A DNA stretch of 64,000 nt, from assembly GCF_011806425.1 (NCBI RefSeq), contig NZ_JAATOV010000001.1, positions 124,001 to 188,000 on the forward strand, given 5' to 3'. Positions 20,008 to 38,342 of the stretch are shown here, one piece after another (position 1 is the stretch's first letter; every line of letters starts with the position of its first letter). The stretch is from Thalassospira lucentensis. GTDB lineage: Bacteria; Pseudomonadota; Alphaproteobacteria; Rhodospirillales; Thalassospiraceae. The notes under the pieces were generated by a model. The model was not told the DNA's origin and made no database searches. It saw only the letters and a list, made by a program, of their open reading frames with translations. The position numbers were made by a program, and so were the translations under genes.

Positions 20008-20097
<90 letters not shown>

Positions 20098-25706: not shown

Positions 25707-26216
25707 ATGCTGTTTCGTGAAAATCTAGTTATCCGTCAGATGGAACATCGTGACATAGAGAACGCTCGCTTGTTACACAATCATCCATCTGTGCTTAAGT
25801 TTTTGACTGATGTGCGCCTTATTAGCGAGGCAGAACAAGAAAACTGGTTTAAAGCCGTATCAACCTCAAAGTCGGCAAGGCGCCTTGTCGTTGAAGAAGA
25901 TACAGGTGCTTTTGTGGGCGTCTTCAGGCTGGATGCGATTGATCTGCAAAACAGAAATGCCATGGTCGGGCTGGACATCACTCCCGAGAAACGTGGATTA
26001 GGCTATGCCACCATTACTTTTGAAGCAATGTTCAACTACTTGTTTGGCGCTATGGGATTGCACCGACTTTCACTTGTAACAATGGTCAACAATACGGTGG
26101 CAGTTAACTTGTATAAAAAGCTCGGCTTTGTTGAAGAAGGCTTACACAAAGAAGCAATTTATAGAGACGGGAGTTTCGTCGATTTACGGGCGTTTGCATT
26201 GGTAAAGCAAAAATGA
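25707..26216 (+). CDS. GNAT acetyltransferase, PseH/RimJ-like
   Basis: 169 residues of GNAT fold: MVGLDITPEKRGLGYATITF gives the acetyl-CoA pyrophosphate loop (RGLGYA), and LVTMVNNTVAVNLYKKLGFVEEG is the RimJ/PseH-like C-terminal part. PseH acetylates the 4-amino group of a nucleotide-activated 4-amino-4,6-dideoxy sugar. A PseB-like dehydratase and DegT aminotransferase 10 kb downstream could supply such a sugar. Overlaps the next gene by 4 bp. Confidence 0.8.
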   Translation: MLFRENLVIRQMEHRDIENARLLHNHPSVLKFLTDVRLISEAEQENWFKAVSTSKSARRLVVEEDTGAFVGVFRLDAIDLQNRNAMVGLDITPEKRGLGYATITFEAMFNYLFGAMGLHRLSLVTMVNNTVAVNLYKKLGFVEEGLHKEAIYRDGSFVDLRAFALVKQK

Positions 26217-26821
26217 CCACTCGAGAAAAATCATGGCTCCATAAAGCCGCCTCTAACGGCACCCCTTTGCCCCTTAAACGCTTACTAGGCGCTACATTTG
26301 CCGGTTTTCAAAAACACCTACTGCGCTTTAACAGGTCCCTATTTTTCAGCAACGATTTACGGATGAGGATCTATAGATGGCTGGGCATCAAAGCCGACAA
26401 ACACAGCATTATCTGGTGCGGGGCACACATAAATCATCCAAAACTTATTCAGATTGGCGAGAATTCAATCGTTGGCCCTCGCACAGTGATGCTTTCACAA
26501 GGCGGAATCGTCATTGGTAAGAATGTAAACATATCAGGTTTCAGCTTTATCATCTCACAGGAACACAACGTTTCAAGCCCCAGCCTTGAAACAACCCTTG
26601 CAACTGTGAAGATAGATGACTTTGCGTGGCTTGCTACAAATGTCACAATTTTACCTGGTGTTCATGTTGGCAAAGGAGCCCTTGTTGCAGCCGGCGCTGT
26701 GGTTACAAAGGACGTTCCTCCCCACACGGTAGTCGGCGGTAATCCAGCACGGAAAATTGGCATGCGCGCAGAGACCTTTTCTTACTCGACCAAAGATGAC
26801 AAGGGCTTGAAATGGCTTTAG
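26213..26821 (+). CDS. Hexapeptide-repeat O-acetyltransferase (WcaF/CysE-like)
   Basis: A 202-residue left-handed beta-helix acyltransferase: repeats HPKLIQIGENSIVGPRTVML and GGIVIGKNVNISG, the catalytic His in SQEHNV, and the typical end KGALVAAGAVVTKDVPPHTV followed by GGNPARKIG. It resembles colanic-acid/maltose-type O-acetyltransferases and probably decorates a cluster-encoded glycan. The stop overlaps the next start by 10 bp. Confidence 0.87.
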   Translation: MTTREKSWLHKAASNGTPLPLKRLLGATFAGFQKHLLRFNRSLFFSNDLRMRIYRWLGIKADKHSIIWCGAHINHPKLIQIGENSIVGPRTVMLSQGGIVIGKNVNISGFSFIISQEHNVSSPSLETTLATVKIDDFAWLATNVTILPGVHVGKGALVAAGAVVTKDVPPHTVVGGNPARKIGMRAETFSYSTKDDKGLKWL

Positions 26822-27793: not shown

Positions 27794-28675
27794 ATGGACC
27801 TATCTACACTATCAAACCATGCGCAAATTCAGGTCGTAATTGACGGCACATTCCAGGAGCTCGGGTTCCTTAACCGTAGGGCAAGAAACTCTCTCACTCC
27901 GGTTTACGATGAACGATATCTAAAAATTGCACAAGATGACAAGAATGTAGCATGCATTCTCACAACCGAGGCGCTTTCACCACTCATCGCAGACTCGCAT
28001 CCTCACGCAGTCTGTTCGAAACCCCTTGAAACATTTTTTGATATTCACAACTTCTTGCTGAGTACAGATTTTTATTCACCCGGCCAGAAAACGACAATCT
28101 CTCCAACTGCGCAGATCCACCCAACGGCATATATCGACGCAACAGATGTAGTCATTGGAGAACGATCAATCGTGGGGCCAAATACCGTTATCCTGTCAGG
28201 GAGCGAAATTGGCGATGATTGCTCAATTGGACCAAATAGCACGATCGGGTATGACGGGTTTGAGATTAGAGAACTGGCCGGCAAGACGTGTTGCATCCGG
28301 CACGGTGGAAAAGTCGTTGTAAACAACAATGTGGATATTCAGGCTAATTGTTCGATTGCGAAGTCCGTGTTCAATGCACCAACAACCATAGGTGAAGACT
28401 GCAAGATCGGACATATGGTATTTATCTCACATGGGGTAGCCCTCGATAGGGGCTGCAAAGTTGGAGCCAATGCTGTAATTTCAGGATCCTGTATAATTGG
28501 CCAAGATTGCTGGATCGGCCCGAATGTAGCAATATCAAATGGCCTAAATATAGACAGCGGCTGCTTCATCTCTATCGGGTCTGTCGTCATAAATGACCTG
28601 CCAATCGGAAGTCATGTCACCGGTAACTTTGCAATTGATCACAAGATCTTCCTTAAAAAAATGGCAATTGGATAG
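27794..28675 (+). CDS. LpxD-like hexapeptide N-acyltransferase
   Basis: The 293-residue protein has a short N-terminal domain (1-95) followed by about 28 hexapeptide-type repeats (TTISPTAQIHPTAYIDATDV, VVIGERSIVGPNTVILSGSE, GEDCKIGHMVFISHGV). The layout, with a non-repeat N-domain and an interrupting loop at YDGFEIRELAGKTC, follows LpxD, which moves a hydroxyacyl group from acyl carrier protein to the 3-amino group of UDP-GlcN. A housekeeping LpxD would sit near lpxA/fabZ, so this copy is probably dedicated to an amino sugar of the cluster. The nearby ACP fusion makes an ACP-dependent reaction attractive. Confidence 0.75.
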   Translation: MDLSTLSNHAQIQVVIDGTFQELGFLNRRARNSLTPVYDERYLKIAQDDKNVACILTTEALSPLIADSHPHAVCSKPLETFFDIHNFLLSTDFYSPGQKTTISPTAQIHPTAYIDATDVVIGERSIVGPNTVILSGSEIGDDCSIGPNSTIGYDGFEIRELAGKTCCIRHGGKVVVNNNVDIQANCSIAKSVFNAPTTIGEDCKIGHMVFISHGVALDRGCKVGANAVISGSCIIGQDCWIGPNVAISNGLNIDSGCFISIGSVVINDLPIGSHVTGNFAIDHKIFLKKMAIG

Positions 28676-28798
28676 ATGCTACTTCTGCATCTTCTATCGA
28701 TCTGGGGCTTACACGGCATAGTGCAATTACAAAAGCCTGGATCGCATGTTATCTCTATGAGGACAGCAACCTTCGAACTTACCGATGCCTGCTTTCTG

Positions 28799-28829
28799 AG
28801 GTGTAACAAACCAATGTACAATTACACCT
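28799..28829 (+). other. Stem-loop between LpxD-like and CgeB-like genes
   Basis: AGGTGTAA (28799-28806) pairs with TTACACCT (28822-28829) across a 15-nt loop, with no T-run. It lies in a 174-bp gap without another gene. It may be a weak terminator or a processing site. Confidence 0.35.
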
Positions 28830-28849
28830 AGCAGCACATTAGTTCAGAA

Positions 28850-29842
28850 ATGGAAAACATACATAACTCTCATTTAGAGAGCGACGAGCTCCAAAATAAG
28901 AAAGTGATTTTTGTGGTTAACAAACAAAAAATTATACTTATTTATGAAGATAAGAAACAAATAAATTCAGATTGCTTCATTAAACAACTTCATATTGTGC
29001 TGAAAGACAATTTTGACCTCCAGTATGTCTCAGCAAACGACCTGATTAACGGAGAGTATAATACACCCCCACATGGCGTAAAAATGCTTTCTGTACTGCG
29101 CTTGAGAAGCTGGCGACCACTTCTCCCATACCTTGCCAAAATTTCTGAGACTTCTGAACTGTATATGTACGACCAAGACCCTTGGGAAGCGTATCACGAC
29201 AACGGAGCTTGCCGTGGTATATATGAATTACTCCAATCACTTATCCGCGTTGAATCCTTTCTGGTAACTTCTAAATGGTGGTGTGATCATATTGCCAACC
29301 AAACAGAGGCAACGGTAAAATTTGTGCGGATGGGGGCAATCCCTCAGAATTGCGATCCGGGAAAACCATTTACCAAACGCAAACACGAAATTGGTTTTCA
29401 AGGCACAGTTCATCCTCATCGGCAAAAATTTTTCGATGAGCTCGAAAAAACAAGCGGCTTGCACACTGAAATTTTGGAACGGGTTGATTTCGAAACTTTC
29501 CTGAAAACCGTTCAAGAAGTTGGCATTTATTTATATGACGACCATGCATCACTGACCGTCCAAGGCGAACCAACCAGCTTCCACGGCCTGTGGGGAAAAT
29601 GTCTCACAGTTGCAGGACGCGGCTGCTTTGTCATCAGGAATGATGACCTAAGCCGTGCAGCTTACAACATAGACGAAATCCCGACCGTCTTTCCATATAA
29701 GGATAGATCGGAAATTCCTAAGTTGGTAGAACATATCAGGCGCATGCCCGAAGAGGAACGTTGGCGACGCATGAACAAAGCTGTCGAGATCATCAAAAAT
29801 CGCCAAGACTGGCAAACCGTCGTATCAGCCATCAACGCGTAA
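28850..29842 (+). CDS. CgeB-like glycosyltransferase
   Basis: A 330-residue protein whose C-terminal half resembles the Glyco_trans_1_2/CgeB family: IGFQGTVHPHRQKFFDEL, VGIYLYDDHASLTVQGEPTS, FHGLWGKCLTVAGRGCFVIR and VFPYKDRSEIPKLVEHI. The N-terminal half (YLAKISETSELYMYDQDPWE) is compatible with a GT-B acceptor domain. The AMP-ligase gene starts 17 bp downstream. Confidence 0.7.
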   Translation: MENIHNSHLESDELQNKKVIFVVNKQKIILIYEDKKQINSDCFIKQLHIVLKDNFDLQYVSANDLINGEYNTPPHGVKMLSVLRLRSWRPLLPYLAKISETSELYMYDQDPWEAYHDNGACRGIYELLQSLIRVESFLVTSKWWCDHIANQTEATVKFVRMGAIPQNCDPGKPFTKRKHEIGFQGTVHPHRQKFFDELEKTSGLHTEILERVDFETFLKTVQEVGIYLYDDHASLTVQGEPTSFHGLWGKCLTVAGRGCFVIRNDDLSRAAYNIDEIPTVFPYKDRSEIPKLVEHIRRMPEEERWRRMNKAVEIIKNRQDWQTVVSAINA

Positions 29843-29858
29843 AACACAGGTCGAGAAC

Positions 29859-31304
29859 ATGATCATCAATCTACCGGAACGAACTCGAATCTCACTCATT
29901 ACCGAGGATAAATCTTTATCTTCGCAAGAGCTGTCCAAAGAGGCATTAAATATAGCCACTCAGTTGCAGCGTTTCGGTATTGGGAAAGGCGACCTCGTTG
30001 TGATCATTGCCTCCTACCAACCAAGCTTCTTCTCCACATTGTTCGGCGCCTGGAGAGCAGGCGCGTGCGTCGCTTGCGTAAACTCCTCGATCACACTTAG
30101 CGAAATCAACAACATCTGCAACTTTGTTAAGGCCAAAGCGATTGTTGGTGCGGGTAATCTAGCATTCGAAGAGGCTCCTGCTGCACCGTATATAGATACA
30201 ACGCAAGAATCTGAGTCCTCGCATCCCTTCACAGAGGTTGTGGAACACGGATTGGATGATGATGCCCTGATGCTTTTCACATCAGGCACAACGGGAACAC
30301 CCAAAGGGGTCACACACTCATTCCGATCATTGTTTGCTCGCATCGCGATTAACCGTGAAGAAATCGGCGATGAAGTACTCCGTAACACTTTGAGTCCCTT
30401 GCCCACACATTTTGGACATGGTTTGATTGGGAATTGCCTTACTGCAATTTTTGCCGGCGCTCATTTACGGATTGTGCCAGGTGTGTCTGTCGAAATAGCG
30501 AGCAATTTTGGCAAATTGCTAGACGAACATGAAATTAGCTTCATGAGCTCAGTCCCGGCTATGTGGCGCATAATTACGCGCCTTTCAAGCGGACCGGAGA
30601 AACAATACCTTCGGCGCGTGCATGTTGGGTCCGCCCCTCTTTCATCAGATTTATGGGGGGATATTGCCAAATGGTGCTCACTAGATTCCATCTGGAATGT
30701 GTATGGGATTACAGAGGCTTGTAACTGGATCGGCGGCCGGACCTATATACGCGGTGTGGCAGAAGATGGCCTTATTGGCAAAGCATGGGGCGGAAGTTAT
30801 GCAGTTAAGCTTGACGATGGCAGCATCCAAAACCATGGGAAAGGCGAGCTTCTAGTTCAAACGCCAACCTTAATGCGCGGTTACTTTGATCGACCAGAAA
30901 CGACGGCTGAAGCCCTTCAGAGCGGCTGGTTTCACACAGGAGACATCGCCGTCATTGATGAAATGGGAAATGCGAAACTGATCGGCCGCCAAAAAAACGA
31001 AATCAATAGAGCCGGGTTAAAAATTCATCCTGAAGATATCGATATCTTGCTTGAAAAGCATAAAGATATCAAAGAAGCATGTGCATTCCCAGTGTCAGAT
31101 CCTCTAGCTGGTCAAATTGTCGGCGTCGCGATCGTCCCTGAAGACAGCAGTAACTTTGATCTCGCAACAGTGAAAACCCACTGTCGAGAAAACCTCATCC
31201 CGGAAAAGAACCCGGATAGATGGTTTGTCGTAGATGGCATTCCAAAGACCGATCGTGGGAAAATAAACCGCGAAAATGTCGCAAACTTCTGCCTGAACGA
31301 ATAA
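29859..31304 (+). CDS. AMP-forming acyl-CoA/acyl-ACP ligase (ANL family)
   Basis: A 481-residue adenylating enzyme with the ATP loop LFTSGTTGTPKGVTHS, the A5 motif NVYGITEA, A7 GWFHTGDIAVID, hinge LIGRQKNEINRAGLKIHPED and the catalytic C-terminal Lys in PKTDRGKINR. It activates a carboxylic acid as acyl-AMP and passes it to a thiol, CoA or a carrier protein. The next gene encodes an N-terminal carrier-protein domain, so loading of that ACP is a reasonable inference. The acid substrate cannot be read from sequence. Confidence 0.9.
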   Translation: MIINLPERTRISLITEDKSLSSQELSKEALNIATQLQRFGIGKGDLVVIIASYQPSFFSTLFGAWRAGACVACVNSSITLSEINNICNFVKAKAIVGAGNLAFEEAPAAPYIDTTQESESSHPFTEVVEHGLDDDALMLFTSGTTGTPKGVTHSFRSLFARIAINREEIGDEVLRNTLSPLPTHFGHGLIGNCLTAIFAGAHLRIVPGVSVEIASNFGKLLDEHEISFMSSVPAMWRIITRLSSGPEKQYLRRVHVGSAPLSSDLWGDIAKWCSLDSIWNVYGITEACNWIGGRTYIRGVAEDGLIGKAWGGSYAVKLDDGSIQNHGKGELLVQTPTLMRGYFDRPETTAEALQSGWFHTGDIAVIDEMGNAKLIGRQKNEINRAGLKIHPEDIDILLEKHKDIKEACAFPVSDPLAGQIVGVAIVPEDSSNFDLATVKTHCRENLIPEKNPDRWFVVDGIPKTDRGKINRENVANFCLNE

Positions 31305-31735
31305 TTATCTTATTTATCCCGACGACAAGAATAGTTGTTTCAAAGGTAAATCCTGCAGATTATTTTCTGCAGGATTTACTGTATCGACAGACCATACTAT
31401 CCAAAACTGAAGATCATTGCTTACGATAATCATTGGCTACAGCATCACAACTAAATGAGAACAGTAGCCCCCTAAGTCAGTTATCTGCCATGCCCACCAC
31501 GCTTCTCTAAGTCAATATATCGCGTCCCGAAATGGTAAAGAACGATGAGATATTGACCGCCTTTAGAGGCGGCTTTCGGCTATAAATCCACCTTGATTTA
31601 TGTCGCCCAGATAATTATGTTGCCACCATTCACTACCTTAAAGATTTTGGCTCACAGCCTTTTGTTAATCACTTAAATACAAAAATTAATACACGACAAT
31701 ATCTCGATATTTTAGAATAAAAAGGCGGAACAGGA
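31305..31735. other. Intergenic region in the glycan cluster
   Basis: This 431-bp gap is the longest in the cluster. It contains a long perfect hairpin (31346-31379) and a short one (CCGCC/GGCGG, 31557-31572). The last 100 bp are very AT-rich and may hold a promoter for the ACP-lyase gene. No gene is supported; scrambled similarity to an insertion element is possible but I cannot show it. Confidence 0.5.
31346..31379. terminator. Long perfect stem-loop downstream of the AMP-ligase
   Basis: GTAAATCCTGCAGA (31346-31359) pairs perfectly with TCTGCAGGATTTAC (31366-31379), loop TTATTT. There is no T-tract on either side beyond short runs, so it may end transcription inefficiently, or stabilise the upstream mRNA. 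Confidence 0.5.
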
Positions 31736-32884
31736 ATGAATAATCTTAAAGAAATATCAAAAAATATCGTTGCTGACGCCCTTAATCTTGACCAAAGCGA
31801 AGTCCATGATGATGCCAGCTCGGCCACAATTCGTCAGTGGGATAGCTTGGCCTTAATCAGGATTATTGTGGGCATAGAAAAAATTATTGGCGAAGAACTC
31901 CCTCGGGATATTTCCTCTAAATTATCATCTATAAAAGATGTCGAGCGCACACTAGGTTTATATTTGCAAAAACCCTCCGAGCTGAACTCTGACAGTGAAG
32001 CCGTTGAACTTCATCAAAACACCGGACAGAGTTATGGTGAGCAGCTCCGCTCGAGAATGAAAACCGGAAAAATACTTCCGCTCATTGGGGTATTTGATCA
32101 GTTTTCCGCCTCGCTTGCTGGCAGAGAATTCGAAGGCATATTTTGTTCAGGCTATGGCTTTGCTGCAAGCTACTACGGGCTTCCCGACGAAGGCTACATA
32201 GCATGGCCGGATATCGTCAACTATGTTGAGAGAATGCGGGCCATTTTACCCGAAAACCACATTGTCGTAGATATCGATGAGGGATACGGTGACGCGAACA
32301 TTGCTGCAACTGTCGCAACAAGGCTAGAACGCGTTGGAGCGTCTGCAGTTATACTTGAAGATCAACGACGTCCAAAACAATGCGGTCACCTTGAAGGTAA
32401 AGAGGTTATGCCCGTCGATGACTATATCCGCCGACTAGATGCAGTCCTTACCGCACGCGACGAGATGTTCGTTGTCGCCCGCTCCGACAGCACAAACTTT
32501 GAAGATGGGCTAAAACGCGTCTCAACATATGCAAATGTTGGTGCCGACGCAATCATGCTGGAAGGTTTGTCGTCCGTTGAGGATGTCTCACGCGTACGGG
32601 ATGCTGTGAAATCTGACGCCTATATCGTGGTCAACTTAATTGCTGGCGGGAAAACTCCGCCTGTTTCACTTACTGAATTAAAGTCCAAGGGCGCAGATTT
32701 AGTCATCTATAGTACGCCATGTCTTTTCCATGCACATGAAGCAATCCAAAACGGTTTAAAAGCACTCAAGGCAAACGATGGAAAATTAATCCCTGATCAA
32801 TCAGGAATTGGCTTTATGGACAACATTAATCTCTTTAGAGATAACGTAGTGAAGCTCCTAAACAAGTCGTCCTCTAAAAGGTGA
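31736..32884 (+). CDS. Acyl carrier protein fused to isocitrate lyase/PEP mutase-family enzyme
   Basis: Residues 1-75 are an acyl carrier-like domain (IVADALNLDQSEV, TIRQWDSLALIRIIVGIEKI) with Ser37 as the likely phosphopantetheine site. Residues about 100-375 are an isocitrate lyase/PEP mutase-superfamily barrel: metal-site VDIDEGYGD (Asp179, Asp181), ILEDQRRPKQCGHLEGKEVM with catalytic-type Cys216-Gly-His, and FVVARSD. The PKxCGH loop matches C-C lyases (isocitrate, 2-methylisocitrate) and oxaloacetate-type hydrolases rather than PEP mutases (EDKxxPKxNS). The carrier suggests that the substrate or product is a tethered acyl thioester. The ligase gene lies upstream; the next gene starts directly after its stop. 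Confidence 0.85.
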   Translation: MNNLKEISKNIVADALNLDQSEVHDDASSATIRQWDSLALIRIIVGIEKIIGEELPRDISSKLSSIKDVERTLGLYLQKPSELNSDSEAVELHQNTGQSYGEQLRSRMKTGKILPLIGVFDQFSASLAGREFEGIFCSGYGFAASYYGLPDEGYIAWPDIVNYVERMRAILPENHIVVDIDEGYGDANIAATVATRLERVGASAVILEDQRRPKQCGHLEGKEVMPVDDYIRRLDAVLTARDEMFVVARSDSTNFEDGLKRVSTYANVGADAIMLEGLSSVEDVSRVRDAVKSDAYIVVNLIAGGKTPPVSLTELKSKGADLVIYSTPCLFHAHEAIQNGLKALKANDGKLIPDQSGIGFMDNINLFRDNVVKLLNKSSSKR

Positions 32885-33124
32885 ATGAAGATGAAACCGT
32901 CTTTCTGTAAAATGGCCTTACTGTCCGGTGCAGCACTTTTGACGCTCACCAGCCCGGCGTATGCTTACCTCGACCCTGGAACCGGTTCCATTATCCTGCA
33001 GGCTGTGGTTGGGGCCGTCGCAGCTCTCAGCGTCGGCTTTGCTGCAGCACGCCAACAGATCAAGGCATTCTTCGCTAAATTATTCGGCAAAGACAAAGAC
33101 CCAAACAGCCCAGAAGACGAATAA
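32885..33124 (+). CDS. Small exported protein with YLDPGTGS motif
   Basis: 79 residues: a signal peptide ending near TLTSPAYA (residues 1-27), immediately followed by YLDPGTGSIILQAVVGAVAA, one hydrophobic segment, and a charged tail (AKLFGKDKDPNSPEDE). The YLDPGTGS motif recurs in small proteins encoded near polysaccharide and sulfatase-like genes; I know of no proven function. It begins at the base after the stop of the ACP-lyase gene, with the AAAAGG of that gene's end as ribosome site, so the two are cotranslated. ATG 32891 is an alternative start. Confidence 0.85.
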   Translation: MKMKPSFCKMALLSGAALLTLTSPAYAYLDPGTGSIILQAVVGAVAALSVGFAAARQQIKAFFAKLFGKDKDPNSPEDE

Positions 33125-33163: not shown

Positions 33164-34561
33164 ATGATGACAGCAATTGTTCCCGGATCCTTTAGAGATC
33201 GAAATGGTAGAGTTGTAAGACACGAGAACCGTATCTTCAGAACACTATCAGATACCGCCTACCAGACGATTTCTGAGATGACGAAAACTGGGACATTGGA
33301 AATGCTCATGTCAGAGAATAACCTCTGGCCAGCTACCTTGAAGAATGCTGATGAGGTTCCAAAGGAAATTGTTGATCTAAGCCCCAGCGGAAGAGTCTTG
33401 GAACATCCCGAGATTTCTTTCATTTCCCACCCCTACGAGTGGTCATTTTCACAGCTAAAGTCCGCTGCAATTACGCATTTAAACCTTCATCTTTCTGCTC
33501 TTAAACTTGGCTATAATTTAGCGGATGGTTCTGCCTATAATATTCAGTTCATTGGCACAAAAGCTTACTTCATCGATACGCTTTCTTTAATTGAATATAA
33601 TGACGGAGATTATTGGGATGGGTACCGGCAGTTCGTCGAACAATTCCTGTGCCCATTACTCCTACGCTGCAAATTAGGAACCCCATTCAACTCATGGTTT
33701 AGGGGTGAACTAGAAGGAATTCCTGTCGGGGAATTTGCAAAACTCGCGCGGATGCGTGATTTTTTCTCTCCCGTAATGCTTTTTCATGTGATTTTGCATG
33801 CGCACCTCCAAAGCAAGCACTCTGATGCACGTGAAAACGCAAAAAAAACTAACCTTTCCTTCAGCAAGACTAAACTTAGAAATCTTTTATTGAGTTTAAA
33901 AAACACGATCATGGCGCTTAAACTACCAGCCGGAGGAAGCTCGGAATGGGGAGACTATGAACACGACAATAGTTACACCAATGAAGAAACTCAAAAAAAG
34001 AAAGATTTGATTGCAAACTTCATTACCCGAACCGAATCAAAAACGGTCTGGGACTTAGGATGCAACTCCGGATTGTTCAGCGAGGCAGCTTTACAAGGCG
34101 GAGCAACTCAAGCTATCGGGTTTGACATCGACCATAATGCTCTAGAAGCCGCCTTCAATCGTGCGAAAAGCAAAAAAATAAATTTGCTCCCGCTGTATTT
34201 CAACGCAATGAACCCGAGCCCGAACCAAGGCTGGATGCAATCGGAACGACTAGGTTTTTCTGACCGCAAAAATGCGGACAGTATCTTGGCGCTTGCTTTC
34301 ATTCATCACTTAGTAGTTGGAAGAAATGCTCTTCTTACAGATGTTGTAAATTGGTTGATAAGCTTAGCACCAAACGGTGTAATAGAATTTGTTCCCAAAT
34401 CAGACCCGATGATACAACGCATGCTCGCGACGCGCGAGGATATATTCAATGACTACACAAAAGAGAACTTCATTATAGCCATTGAAAGAAATGCAAAAAT
34501 TGAAAATAGAGAAGTAGTATCACAATCGGGAAGAGAATTATTCTTCTACAGGAAAAAATAA
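33164..34561 (+). CDS. NoeA-like two-part SAM methyltransferase
   Basis: 465 residues. The N-terminal 280 contain YEWSFSQLKSAAITHLNLHL and an aspartate-rich FIDTLSLIEYNDGDYWDGYR, which look kinase-like or unknown; the C-terminal part is a class I methyltransferase (VWDLGCNSGLFSEAALQGG, AIGFDIDHNALEAA, DSILALAFIHHLVVGRN). This two-part layout is like nodulation protein NoeA and related proteins; NoeA's exact reaction is not settled. It shares a TAATG overlap with the membrane sulfatase-like gene and follows the YLDPGTGS gene by 39 bp. Confidence 0.75.
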   Translation: MMTAIVPGSFRDRNGRVVRHENRIFRTLSDTAYQTISEMTKTGTLEMLMSENNLWPATLKNADEVPKEIVDLSPSGRVLEHPEISFISHPYEWSFSQLKSAAITHLNLHLSALKLGYNLADGSAYNIQFIGTKAYFIDTLSLIEYNDGDYWDGYRQFVEQFLCPLLLRCKLGTPFNSWFRGELEGIPVGEFAKLARMRDFFSPVMLFHVILHAHLQSKHSDARENAKKTNLSFSKTKLRNLLLSLKNTIMALKLPAGGSSEWGDYEHDNSYTNEETQKKKDLIANFITRTESKTVWDLGCNSGLFSEAALQGGATQAIGFDIDHNALEAAFNRAKSKKINLLPLYFNAMNPSPNQGWMQSERLGFSDRKNADSILALAFIHHLVVGRNALLTDVVNWLISLAPNGVIEFVPKSDPMIQRMLATREDIFNDYTKENFIIAIERNAKIENREVVSQSGRELFFYRKK

Positions 34562-36087
34562 TGACCAACATTGCACTGCCTATCATATCTTTGCTTGCAA
34601 TTTGTCTATGGCCTTTCAACAACTTCTTGGACACCAACCTCGGTGAGTTGAGGAAAGCTGATATTTTTTCTATTTGGCAACCTCTTTTGTTTTGTTTATT
34701 TGTTTTTTCAATTCTGTTGATCGTCACATTAGCTGTACGCGCAATAACCAAACGGCATTTTCATTCGATTTTTAGTGCAGGTCTTGTATTAGTTGGAATT
34801 TTCTTCTTTTTTAAACCGGCATATCAACTCAGCGGAAACATCATAACTGCGATTGGTTTTGAGCGCGGTGCGATTATAGGTGTGCTGATTTTCGCATGTT
34901 TGGTCTGCGCAATTGCTGGCACTCTCTCGCGATTTGAAATCACTCGAAAGAGCCTGTACTTTGGTATCGTAGTAGCTTCATTCACACCTTTGATTATGAA
35001 TCTACCAAGCTTGGCTTCAAGCATCTTCTTCGAGCCGGAAACAAACACGAAGATTGAGGAACGGATATCTCCGGTTGTGGAGAACAATTTGCCAAACATC
35101 TACTATATTGTATCAGATGGGATGATCGGTGAAAGAGGATACCAAACTGTTACCGGTCAAAGCCTTCTTCCCTTTGTCCAATCTATGGAAACACTAGGGT
35201 TCTCTTATATTCCAGAAGCGCGGTCTAATTACATAGCTTCGGCTTCCAGTATCGGAAGTCTTTTTCATTTAGACTATTTTAGGGATGAAAACTCCGATCA
35301 ATCGGCGCTGCCGAACAGCAGCTACTTCCCGGCAATCACATACCGGAAGCAGCCTTCGGAATTATTTCGGAAATTGCGCAGCCTAGGCTACGATCTTAAC
35401 ATGTCCGGGAGCTGGTACAGCGGCTGCCGCAAAGTCCATATGGATTGCATTAATCGGGAACAATTTCATCCGAACCGCGAAGCTCAAATTTTGATATCGC
35501 GGACACCGCTGCCATTAATCTATCCAGCTGTCCTCGACAAGAAAATTGACTCAATTACGCCGGTAACAGAATATCTCGAAAAGCTTGTTGAAAAGCGAAC
35601 GGAAAGTGAGCATCCGCAGTTTACATTTATCCATCACATGCAACCTCACAGCCCGTGGTATGTAGATGGGGAATGTAACCGCATCAATGTAAGCGCCTAC
35701 AATGATGGACGACTTTATCAGTACAGTGTTGAATGCATTGAGAAAACAGTCACTACGTTCATGACCAAACTTTCAGTGCTGGATCCGAACGCAATCGTTG
35801 TACTGCATGGTGATCATGGCTGGCTTTTGAATGATCAGGCGCCTGGTATTCCAGAATATGAATGGTCCGATGATTTGATCGACCAAAGATCAGAGATACT
35901 AAACATCATTAAAAGCCCTGAAGAATGTAAAAAATGGCTGAAAGATGATTTAGGGCCGATAAATACTTTGAGGTTTGTTTTATCCTGCGTTCAAAGAAAA
36001 GCCCCAGAATACCTAGAAGAAAAGCTTTTGGTTCCCGGCCAAAATTACGAGAAAGACCTCAAGTTAATCCGGCGACGCATAGGATAA
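34561..36087 (+). CDS. Membrane-anchored sulfatase-like hydrolase/transferase
   Basis: 508 residues with about four N-terminal transmembrane helices (1-150) and a periplasmic alkaline-phosphatase-superfamily domain. Metal-binding elements are NIYYIVSDGMIGERGY (first Asp), FIHHMQPHSPW and IVVLHGDHGWL (Asp-His). The usual sulfatase formylglycine motif CxPxR is absent; Ser or Thr after the DGM strand (around YIASASSIGS) may act as nucleophile, as in phosphoglycerol or phosphoethanolamine transferases. I infer transfer or removal of a charged group on an exported glycan. It closes a tight four-gene run from 31736. Confidence 0.78.
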   Translation: MTNIALPIISLLAICLWPFNNFLDTNLGELRKADIFSIWQPLLFCLFVFSILLIVTLAVRAITKRHFHSIFSAGLVLVGIFFFFKPAYQLSGNIITAIGFERGAIIGVLIFACLVCAIAGTLSRFEITRKSLYFGIVVASFTPLIMNLPSLASSIFFEPETNTKIEERISPVVENNLPNIYYIVSDGMIGERGYQTVTGQSLLPFVQSMETLGFSYIPEARSNYIASASSIGSLFHLDYFRDENSDQSALPNSSYFPAITYRKQPSELFRKLRSLGYDLNMSGSWYSGCRKVHMDCINREQFHPNREAQILISRTPLPLIYPAVLDKKIDSITPVTEYLEKLVEKRTESEHPQFTFIHHMQPHSPWYVDGECNRINVSAYNDGRLYQYSVECIEKTVTTFMTKLSVLDPNAIVVLHGDHGWLLNDQAPGIPEYEWSDDLIDQRSEILNIIKSPEECKKWLKDDLGPINTLRFVLSCVQRKAPEYLEEKLLVPGQNYEKDLKLIRRRIG

Positions 36088-36142: not shown

Positions 36143-37168
36143 ATGGAACAACTTCAAAACAAAAAGATCCTCATCATTGGTGGCACCGGCTCTCTTGGAA
36201 AAGCGCTCGTTCGCCGGTTATCAAACAACAACCATCTAGTTGTTGTTTCAAGAGATGAATTAAAACAATGGACCATGCGGAACGATTTGACTGCCGGGCA
36301 AAGTGTTTCGTTCGCTGTATGCGATATGCGCGACCGCCAACGCCTTGAAGAAGTTGTCCTTACAGAGCTTCCCGATGTTATCGTTGTGGCGGCCGCTCTT
36401 AAACAAGTTGACACTTGTGAACGTGCTCCAAGTGAAAGCATCAAAACAAACATTACCGGCGTACAAAACCTCGTCGAGGTTGTCGAACGAAATCTTGATC
36501 GCATGTCAAACCTTGAGTCTGTTGTGATGGTTTCAACGGACAAGGCATGTGAACCGACGAATGTATATGGCATGTCAAAAGCGATCGCCGAACGAATTGT
36601 GACCAGTCGAGGCCAGCTACATAAGACTCCACGATTTGTTGCAGTTCGTTATGGCAATGTGCTTGAGTCGCGTGGCAGTATTATTCCGCTTTTCCGATAC
36701 CAAGCAGAACATGCCGCAGCCTTCACTCTTACCCATGACGGCATGACCCGCTTTGTGATGACGCTTGATGAAAGTATCGATCTGATCGTTGCAGCTGCCA
36801 AACATGCAGAAAGTGGAGAGACATGGTTACCCACAATTCGTTCGATGCGTGTAAGGGACCTCGCCGAGATTTTCTCTCGTATGTACAATAAACCAATCAA
36901 GGTTACAGGGATCCGCCCAGGCGAAAAACTTCATGAAATGTTGATCTCTGAAACGGAATCCCTGCGATTGATGTCAAAAAATGGATTCCACGTTTTGAAA
37001 TCAGCAATGGACACGATCCCCGACAACTTCAAAATGATTGAATATTCTAGTGAACACGACTGCCTCTCGCAGAATGATCTTGAGAAATATCTGAATTCTC
37101 TTGGGATCCTTTCCGGAGATATGGACAAATTTGTAGGCACCAAAATCGAAGAAATCCGTCCAAGCTAA
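36143..37168 (+). CDS. PseB/CapE-like nucleotide-sugar 4,6-dehydratase
   Basis: 341-residue extended short-chain dehydrogenase of the polysaccharide CapD/PseB group without membrane domains: ILIIGGTGSLGKALVRRL, AAALKQVDTCERAP, MVSTDKACEPTNVYGMSKAI with the Tyr-x3-Lys, and VRYGNVLESRGSIIP. PseB and CapE form a 4-keto-6-deoxy UDP-HexNAc from UDP-GlcNAc. The DegT aminotransferase 19 bp downstream would aminate C4. FlaA1/PglF relatives are the alternative. Confidence 0.88.
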   Translation: MEQLQNKKILIIGGTGSLGKALVRRLSNNNHLVVVSRDELKQWTMRNDLTAGQSVSFAVCDMRDRQRLEEVVLTELPDVIVVAAALKQVDTCERAPSESIKTNITGVQNLVEVVERNLDRMSNLESVVMVSTDKACEPTNVYGMSKAIAERIVTSRGQLHKTPRFVAVRYGNVLESRGSIIPLFRYQAEHAAAFTLTHDGMTRFVMTLDESIDLIVAAAKHAESGETWLPTIRSMRVRDLAEIFSRMYNKPIKVTGIRPGEKLHEMLISETESLRLMSKNGFHVLKSAMDTIPDNFKMIEYSSEHDCLSQNDLEKYLNSLGILSGDMDKFVGTKIEEIRPS

Positions 37169-37187: not shown

Positions 37188-38342
37188 ATGTCTAGTTCAA
37201 TCTCCTATCCCTTATTCAAAGTTTACCTTGAAAAAGAAACCGCACTTTCAGGTTTGGCTGATGTTTTTGACAGCGGCTTCATCAATGAAGGTATCCAAGT
37301 TAATGAATTGAAAGAGCAGCTTAAGGGAGTATTCAAGGATGATAACATTATCCTTATGAATAGCTGCACTTCGGCACTTACCGTGGCGATGAAACTCGCT
37401 GGCTTAAAGCCGGGGAAAAACATTGTGACATCTCCGATGACTTGTATCGCCTCCAATACACCAATCATTAATTTAGGAGGTGAAATCAAGTGGGCTGACG
37501 TTTCCCCGGAAACAGGAATGGTAACAGCTGAAACAATATCCAAAGAGATTGATGAAAACACCGTCGCGGTTCTGTATGTGAACTGGGGTGGCGTTCCTGC
37601 CAATCTGACCGACATCCAATCCGTTGCCAAACAGCATGGCGTGAAAGTCATTCAAGATGCCGCTCACGCGTTCATGGCAGAATTTGATGGCAAACCAATA
37701 AACCATTTTGCCGACTTCACTTGCTATAGCTTCCAAGCAATCAAACATTTCACTTGTGGCGACGGAGGGGCATTAGTCTGCCAAAGTGATCGCGATTATC
37801 ACGCCGCACAGAAACTTAAATGGTTTGGGTATGACCGTGAGAAGGCCAAAGACGAAAAAGGGAACTGGAAAGCACAGCAAGCTGACGCAGACATCCAAGA
37901 AGGTGATGTTGGTTTTAAATTTAACATGAACAACGTGTCGGCAGCCATAGGGTTAGCCCAATTGCCCAAAATGCCTGAAATTGTTGCGCAACATCGAGAC
38001 AATGCAGCGACTTATGATAAAGCATTTGCACAGTCATCTAAAATCCGACCAATCAACCGCGTTCAGGGTAGCAATCCGTCATTCTGGGTATATACGTGTA
38101 TTTTGGACAACAGTGTTGACCGAGATAAGTTCATAGACAAACTCGCATCTGAAGGCATTCACTCAGGACAAGTGCATGTCCCAAATGACGACTATAGTTG
38201 CTTTAACAAGTACCGAAAGCCACTTCCGGGGGTTCGTAAATTCTCGGAACATCAAATCTCGATCCCATGTGGTTGGTGGATAACCCGTCAGGATGCCGAG
38301 AAGATAGCACACACAGTTCTTACTCTTCTTGGCGAGAAGTAA
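37188..38342 (+). CDS. DegT/DnrJ/EryC1/StrS-family sugar aminotransferase
   Basis: A 384-residue PLP enzyme: LMNSCTSALTVAMKLAG, VIQDAAHAFMAEFDG and the PLP Lys in CYSFQAIKHFTCGDGGALV, with FKFNMNNVSAAIGLAQL. It would transfer an amino group to the keto-sugar made by the preceding dehydratase, as PseC or PglE do. No pseI, pseG or pseF is in the window, so pseudaminic acid itself is not supported; a 4-amino-4,6-dideoxy hexose is. Confidence 0.9.
   Translation: MSSSISYPLFKVYLEKETALSGLADVFDSGFINEGIQVNELKEQLKGVFKDDNIILMNSCTSALTVAMKLAGLKPGKNIVTSPMTCIASNTPIINLGGEIKWADVSPETGMVTAETISKEIDENTVAVLYVNWGGVPANLTDIQSVAKQHGVKVIQDAAHAFMAEFDGKPINHFADFTCYSFQAIKHFTCGDGGALVCQSDRDYHAAQKLKWFGYDREKAKDEKGNWKAQQADADIQEGDVGFKFNMNNVSAAIGLAQLPKMPEIVAQHRDNAATYDKAFAQSSKIRPINRVQGSNPSFWVYTCILDNSVDRDKFIDKLASEGIHSGQVHVPNDDYSCFNKYRKPLPGVRKFSEHQISIPCGWWITRQDAEKIAHTVLTLLGEK

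Follow-up and report, generated by a model that had tools for sequence, protein, structure and literature searches.

Why should an acyl carrier domain and a carbon-carbon lyase share one polypeptide within a surface-glycan locus? The window, the 64,000-nucleotide stretch of Thalassospira lucentensis DNA analyzed here, contains at 31736–32884 a single uninterrupted frame of 382 residues in which an acyl carrier domain is followed by a lyase domain; this and all protein-coding features of the window named below lie on the forward strand. The frame, profile matches (ACP profile, E 9.6e-17; prpB model, 8.7e-45) and residues bear out the preliminary description, which had placed at these coordinates a carrier-like domain, with Ser37 in QWDSLAL, joined to a lyase with a PKQCGH loop. 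An AGGA-type ribosome site precedes the ATG. Around the beginning of the lyase just one further ATG is in frame, at codon 108; it has no AGGA-type site and lies within the first helix of the lyase. Thus, given the single frame, the plausible ribosome site and the lack of a good internal start, we read 31736–32884 as one fused protein. The 432-bp gap upstream of the fusion contains no remnant of a GNAT gene, and promoter-like sites were fewer than in shuffled sequence. No such fusion occurs in the remaining 28 genomes of the genus.

The carrier domain spans residues 8–74 (31757–31957). A profile built from 14 ACPs encoded beside related ligases at other loci, with the window sequence left out, matches these residues at E 9.6e-17, compared with a best value of 0.047 among 1000 shuffles. 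The NCBIfam ACP models match the fusion N terminus at E 5e-5, below the model cut-off, and Pfam PP-binding does so at E 0.0017, just short of its cut-off. Ser37 (codon 31844–31846) sits within the ACP profile match in a DSL-type motif, WDSLAL, of which WDS is kept across all related ACPs. In the AF2 model of the fusion, for which an alignment of six rows was used, the lyase domain is modeled well and the ACP shows the four-helix pattern at low confidence; we draw no docking claim from it. By these sequence criteria the N-terminal domain is an acyl carrier, with phosphopantetheine predicted at Ser37.

Pfam PEP_mutase (5.6e-33) assigns the lyase domain, residues 100–370 (32033–32845), to the isocitrate lyase/PEP mutase superfamily. 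The TIGR02317 prpB model matches at 8.7e-45, but its 153 bits are far under the equivalog cut-off of 354, and the domain is not classed as a methylisocitrate lyase. The nearest solved relative, by sequence and by fold, is the petal death protein (Foldseek best match 1zlp, E 7e-22). Petal death protein, 2,3-dimethylmalate lyase and methylisocitrate lyase have the same fold and catalytic residues as the fusion lyase but, unlike it, are without a carrier domain, and where methylisocitrate lyase reads NLTEFGSTP the fusion lyase reads NLIAGGKTP. The PKQCGH catalytic loop occupies residues 213–218 (32372–32389), including Cys216 and His218, and its P, C, G and H are invariant in the alignment, as are D151, D179, D181, E208, C216, H218, R249 and N300 across six relatives. 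The K-x-C-G-H loop, the metal- and carboxylate-binding residues and the fold place the domain in the lyase branch of the superfamily. The mechanism and the roles of the corresponding ICL and MICL catalytic residues have been described (PMC7609661). Because the metal, carboxylate and acid/base residues are invariant in the six relatives, the domain is expected to be catalytically active.

Close standalone homologues of the lyase are found in Aestuariispira and on Streptomycetaceae plasmids, with no ACP seen alongside; the plasmid proteins are 45–50% identical. A Kitasatospora match extends as far as query residue 56, and its additional N-terminal sequence lacks WDS. Apart from the fusion, 297 genomes of the order contain just one strong lyase match, which is unfused and has no ACP seen beside it, and 298 additional genomes sampled across the phylum yielded no further lyase at E 1e-80. 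Viral contigs held no relative of the lyase, and phages only distant lyases without an ACP part. On an Embleya plasmid (L014:11995–12855) a standalone homologue lies, by eye, near SbnA-like, ATP-grasp-like and siderophore-synthetase-like genes, and at L003:1474–3755 an unfused homologue is convergent with an AAE3-like ligase gene. The occurrence of close homologues with no ACP alongside points to a soluble, free acid as the ancestral substrate, which favors a role for the lyase in acid supply.

The gene at 29859–31304 encodes an ANL AMP-forming ligase, as the preliminary description had said of the gene upstream of the fusion (Pfam AMP-binding, 6e-55). The product contains both PF00501 and PF13193, and the catalytic lysine, K468, is invariant. 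Its family recurs beside ACP genes, and from this adjacency we predict that the ligase transfers its acid to the carrier rather than to CoA. The nearest solved relative is the oxalyl-CoA synthetase AAE3. This likeness hints at oxalate as the loaded acid; we did not adopt that candidate, as AAE3 His214, an oxalate contact, aligns with Phe185 of the ligase, so that a pocket residue differs.

Two small-genome alphaproteobacteria from an order other than that of the window organism show how ligase, carrier and lyase are related. In the first, G615 (1.4 Mb, from the class sample), the ligase gene is followed by a gene for a separate 77-residue ACP (QWDSIAY) and one for a lyase 53% identical to that of the fusion. 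Successive genes overlap by ~10 nt, and a sulfatase-like gene follows with the same overlap. The second, G686, of the same order as G615, carries the same ligase–ACP–lyase block, again with ~10-nt overlaps. The recurrence of adjacency and overlaps in two distant genomes indicates that the three genes belong together, and since ACP and lyase are separate overlapping genes there, the best reading of the window gene is that two conserved neighbors, probably coupled in translation, have become fused.

Ligase and carrier also recur together without a lyase. A ligase profile gave 13 strong matches in 385 genomes of the class, to which the order sample added two. At 12 loci, counted apart from the window, G615 and G686, the ligase gene is followed by genes for a GNAT and a small ACP (L016, L017, L034–L036 and L038–L044; in L036 the ACP precedes the GNAT), and no lyase was seen beside the ligase in any of them. 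At L037 the ligase stands without GNAT and without ACP. The earlier proposal that ligase, ACP and lyase form one set is thus upheld by the overlapping blocks of G615 and G686 and, for ligase and ACP, by 12 more loci. PseB/PseC-like genes lie in the cluster in the window, G615 and G686 and in 2 of the 12 cassette loci (those of G084 and G574). The lyase-linked ligases of the window, G615 and G686 form one clade (support 98/99). The ACP-linked lyases also group together, with moderate support (83/89) to be read with caution, as the AT-rich rows are compositionally unusual. The simplest reading is that an ANL ligase–ACP acyl-transfer cassette is the core and the older unit; the lyase looks to have been added once, in a single glycan-island lineage.

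What the lyase does beside a carrier is a separate matter. It might act on the acyl group while this is tethered to the ACP, cleaving, extending or condensing it before the product passes to an amino sugar. The overlap of lyase and ACP genes in two genomes, their fusion in a third, and the confinement of the link to one ligase clade and, with moderate support, to one lyase group would fit such chemistry. However, characterized members of the isocitrate lyase/PEP mutase family use free di- and tricarboxylates, which they bind in a closed site with Mg, close homologues occur with no ACP alongside, and the catalytic residues are identical in ACP-linked and ACP-free lyases. We consider tethered chemistry decidedly unlikely. 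More probably the lyase would supply the acid, cleaving or forming a 2-hydroxy or 2-oxo dicarboxylic acid, and the fusion would hold acid supply and loading together.

The surroundings of the fusion suggest where the acyl group may go. The gene lies in a low-GC glycan island (21236–48629), recognized by composition, synteny and a nearby tRNA-Ser gene (20008–20097). Most island genes have homologues in the island of G615 and, as far as contigs extend, in that of G686. A probable glycosyltransferase (28850–29842), CgeB-like by eye, is kept in the island, as synteny shows, and has no Pfam match. Directly 3′ of the fusion a small membrane protein of 79 residues containing YLDPGTGS (32885–33124) likewise has no Pfam match; a weak homologue (30 bits) is encoded in L057. 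Next come a methyltransferase-domain protein (33164–34561; Pfam and synteny), not found in the G615 and G686 stretches, and a sulfatase/alkaline-phosphatase superfamily protein (34561–36087; Pfam Sulfatase, 5.4e-10), whose homologue is the gene that overlaps the lyase gene in both relatives. The dehydratase/aminotransferase pair expected downstream is present 3.3 kb past the fusion. It consists of a PseB-like UDP-GlcNAc 4,6-dehydratase (36143–37168; TIGR03589, 7.1e-77) and a PseC-like aminotransferase (37188–38342; TIGR03588, 6.8e-63); at 258 of 408 and 213 of 424 bits both are below cut-off and are called PseB/PseC-like only.

The islands of G615 and G686 each include an AcpS gene (L058:16043–16447 and L066:6432–6875) between island glycosyltransferase genes, whereas the AcpS gene of the window genome sits elsewhere. 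As these are the sole AcpS genes detected in each of the two genomes, their position is consistent with modification of the island ACP without proving it, and does not mark them as dedicated to that carrier. Some relatives carry AcpS at pdxJ-acpS-lepB-rnc instead, and some also near glycan-type genes. The G615 contig further encodes a cytidylyltransferase–PEP mutase, a phosphonopyruvate decarboxylase and an alcohol dehydrogenase (L057:5531–9067), by eye a likely phosphonate route.

Three acyltransferases of the island are candidates for the step from carrier to sugar. The first is a PseH-like GNAT (25707–26216) that scores 73.6 bits with TIGR03585, against a cut-off of 93.1; it is only 17–21% identical to the cassette GNATs and is not adjacent to the ligase. 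The second is a WcaF-like hexapeptide acetyltransferase (26213–26821; NCBIfam PRK10502, 4.5e-30), and the third an LpxD-like left-handed β-helix acyltransferase (27794–28675) recognized by its hexapeptide repeats. All three are kept in 3/3 islands, so the user of acyl-ACP is not singled out; we favor the GNAT as the putative acyl-ACP:amino-sugar N-acyltransferase. The preliminary description had instead suggested the LpxD-like protein for this role. β-Helix acyltransferases such as LpxD and PglD transfer acyl groups to sugar amines, and the LpxD-like gene is present in 3/3 lyase islands; in the window it precedes the ligase by 1.2 kb. Its co-occurrence says little, because the three islands share most of their genes, and in G615 and G686, where the ligase adjoins the ACP–lyase pair, the LpxD-like gene is present but 9–10 kb from the ligase. 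It was not seen in the ligase–GNAT–ACP loci, and its product scores below the LpxD (125 of 207 and 110 of 242 bits, NCBIfam) and NeuD/PglD cut-offs and showed no LpxD N-terminal domain in a Pfam scan. Transfer from the carrier to the sugar amine by the LpxD-like protein rather than the GNAT is thus not supported over the GNAT at 25707, and we regard it as unlikely.

Taken together, we propose, with about an even chance of being right, that the locus encodes a module for ACP-dependent acyl transfer, carried in a surface-glycan island of lateral origin. A phosphopantetheinyl transferase would modify Ser37 of the carrier, and the ANL ligase would adenylate a small carboxylic acid and load it. An acyltransferase, most likely the PseH-like GNAT, would then move the acyl group onto the 4-amino group of the UDP-4-amino-4,6-dideoxy sugar that the PseB/PseC-like enzymes would produce, and the acylated sugar would enter the glycan. 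Some cassettes lie outside glycan loci. At three of them, L040, L042 and L043, an ATP-grasp-like gene precedes the cassette and sugar genes are not found close by; these may belong to a small-molecule pathway with the same carrier logic, so that the acceptor need not be a sugar. In line with these cassettes, and with the siderophore-like setting of the Embleya lyase homologue, ligase, ACP and lyase of the window could form a separate small-molecule pathway that travels in the island and has no part in glycan acylation. Against this, the set is kept with amino-sugar genes across two distant lineages and two of the GNAT cassettes also occur with PseB/PseC-like genes; we judge a separate pathway quite improbable and retain the acyl-transfer module.

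Parts of this scheme have counterparts in known systems. DltA/DltC D-alanylation likewise relies on an AMP-forming ligase that charges its own small carrier protein to modify the cell surface, but that system uses an amino-acid substrate and a membrane acyltransferase and has neither lyase nor GNAT. The viosamine island of Pseudomonas syringae (vioA, vioB, vioS, vioR, acp) resembles the present locus in that its ACP is encoded alongside a sugar aminotransferase and the acyltransferase VioB, all within a glycosylation island whose 4-amino sugar is N-acylated (PMC3927599). There a ketosynthase and a reductase are credited with the acyl chain, and, unlike here, no ANL ligase, lyase or fusion is among its listed genes (PMC3927599). 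ACP-based N-acylation of an amino sugar in a glycosylation island therefore has a precedent, and what is well supported here is the adjacency of ligase and ACP and of ACP and lyase. No description of an ACP–lyase fusion or of a ligase–GNAT–ACP cassette was found in the literature searched (mostly without subscription papers), nor are the enzyme families joined here described together in it. The locus looks like a real but undescribed route that attaches a special acid to a surface sugar.

The ligase gene with its GNAT and ACP offers a testable genetic signature of carrier-dependent acylation in alphaproteobacteria. Most of the glycan island (the window; L015, L021, L057, L058 and L066) is common to a 4.5-Mb genome and to assemblies of 1.4 and 0.9 Mb, which suggests that a whole surface-glycan locus moved by lateral transfer between large- and small-genome lineages. 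Should the lyase prove to work on a tethered substrate, the isocitrate lyase/PEP mutase superfamily would gain a new mode of action.
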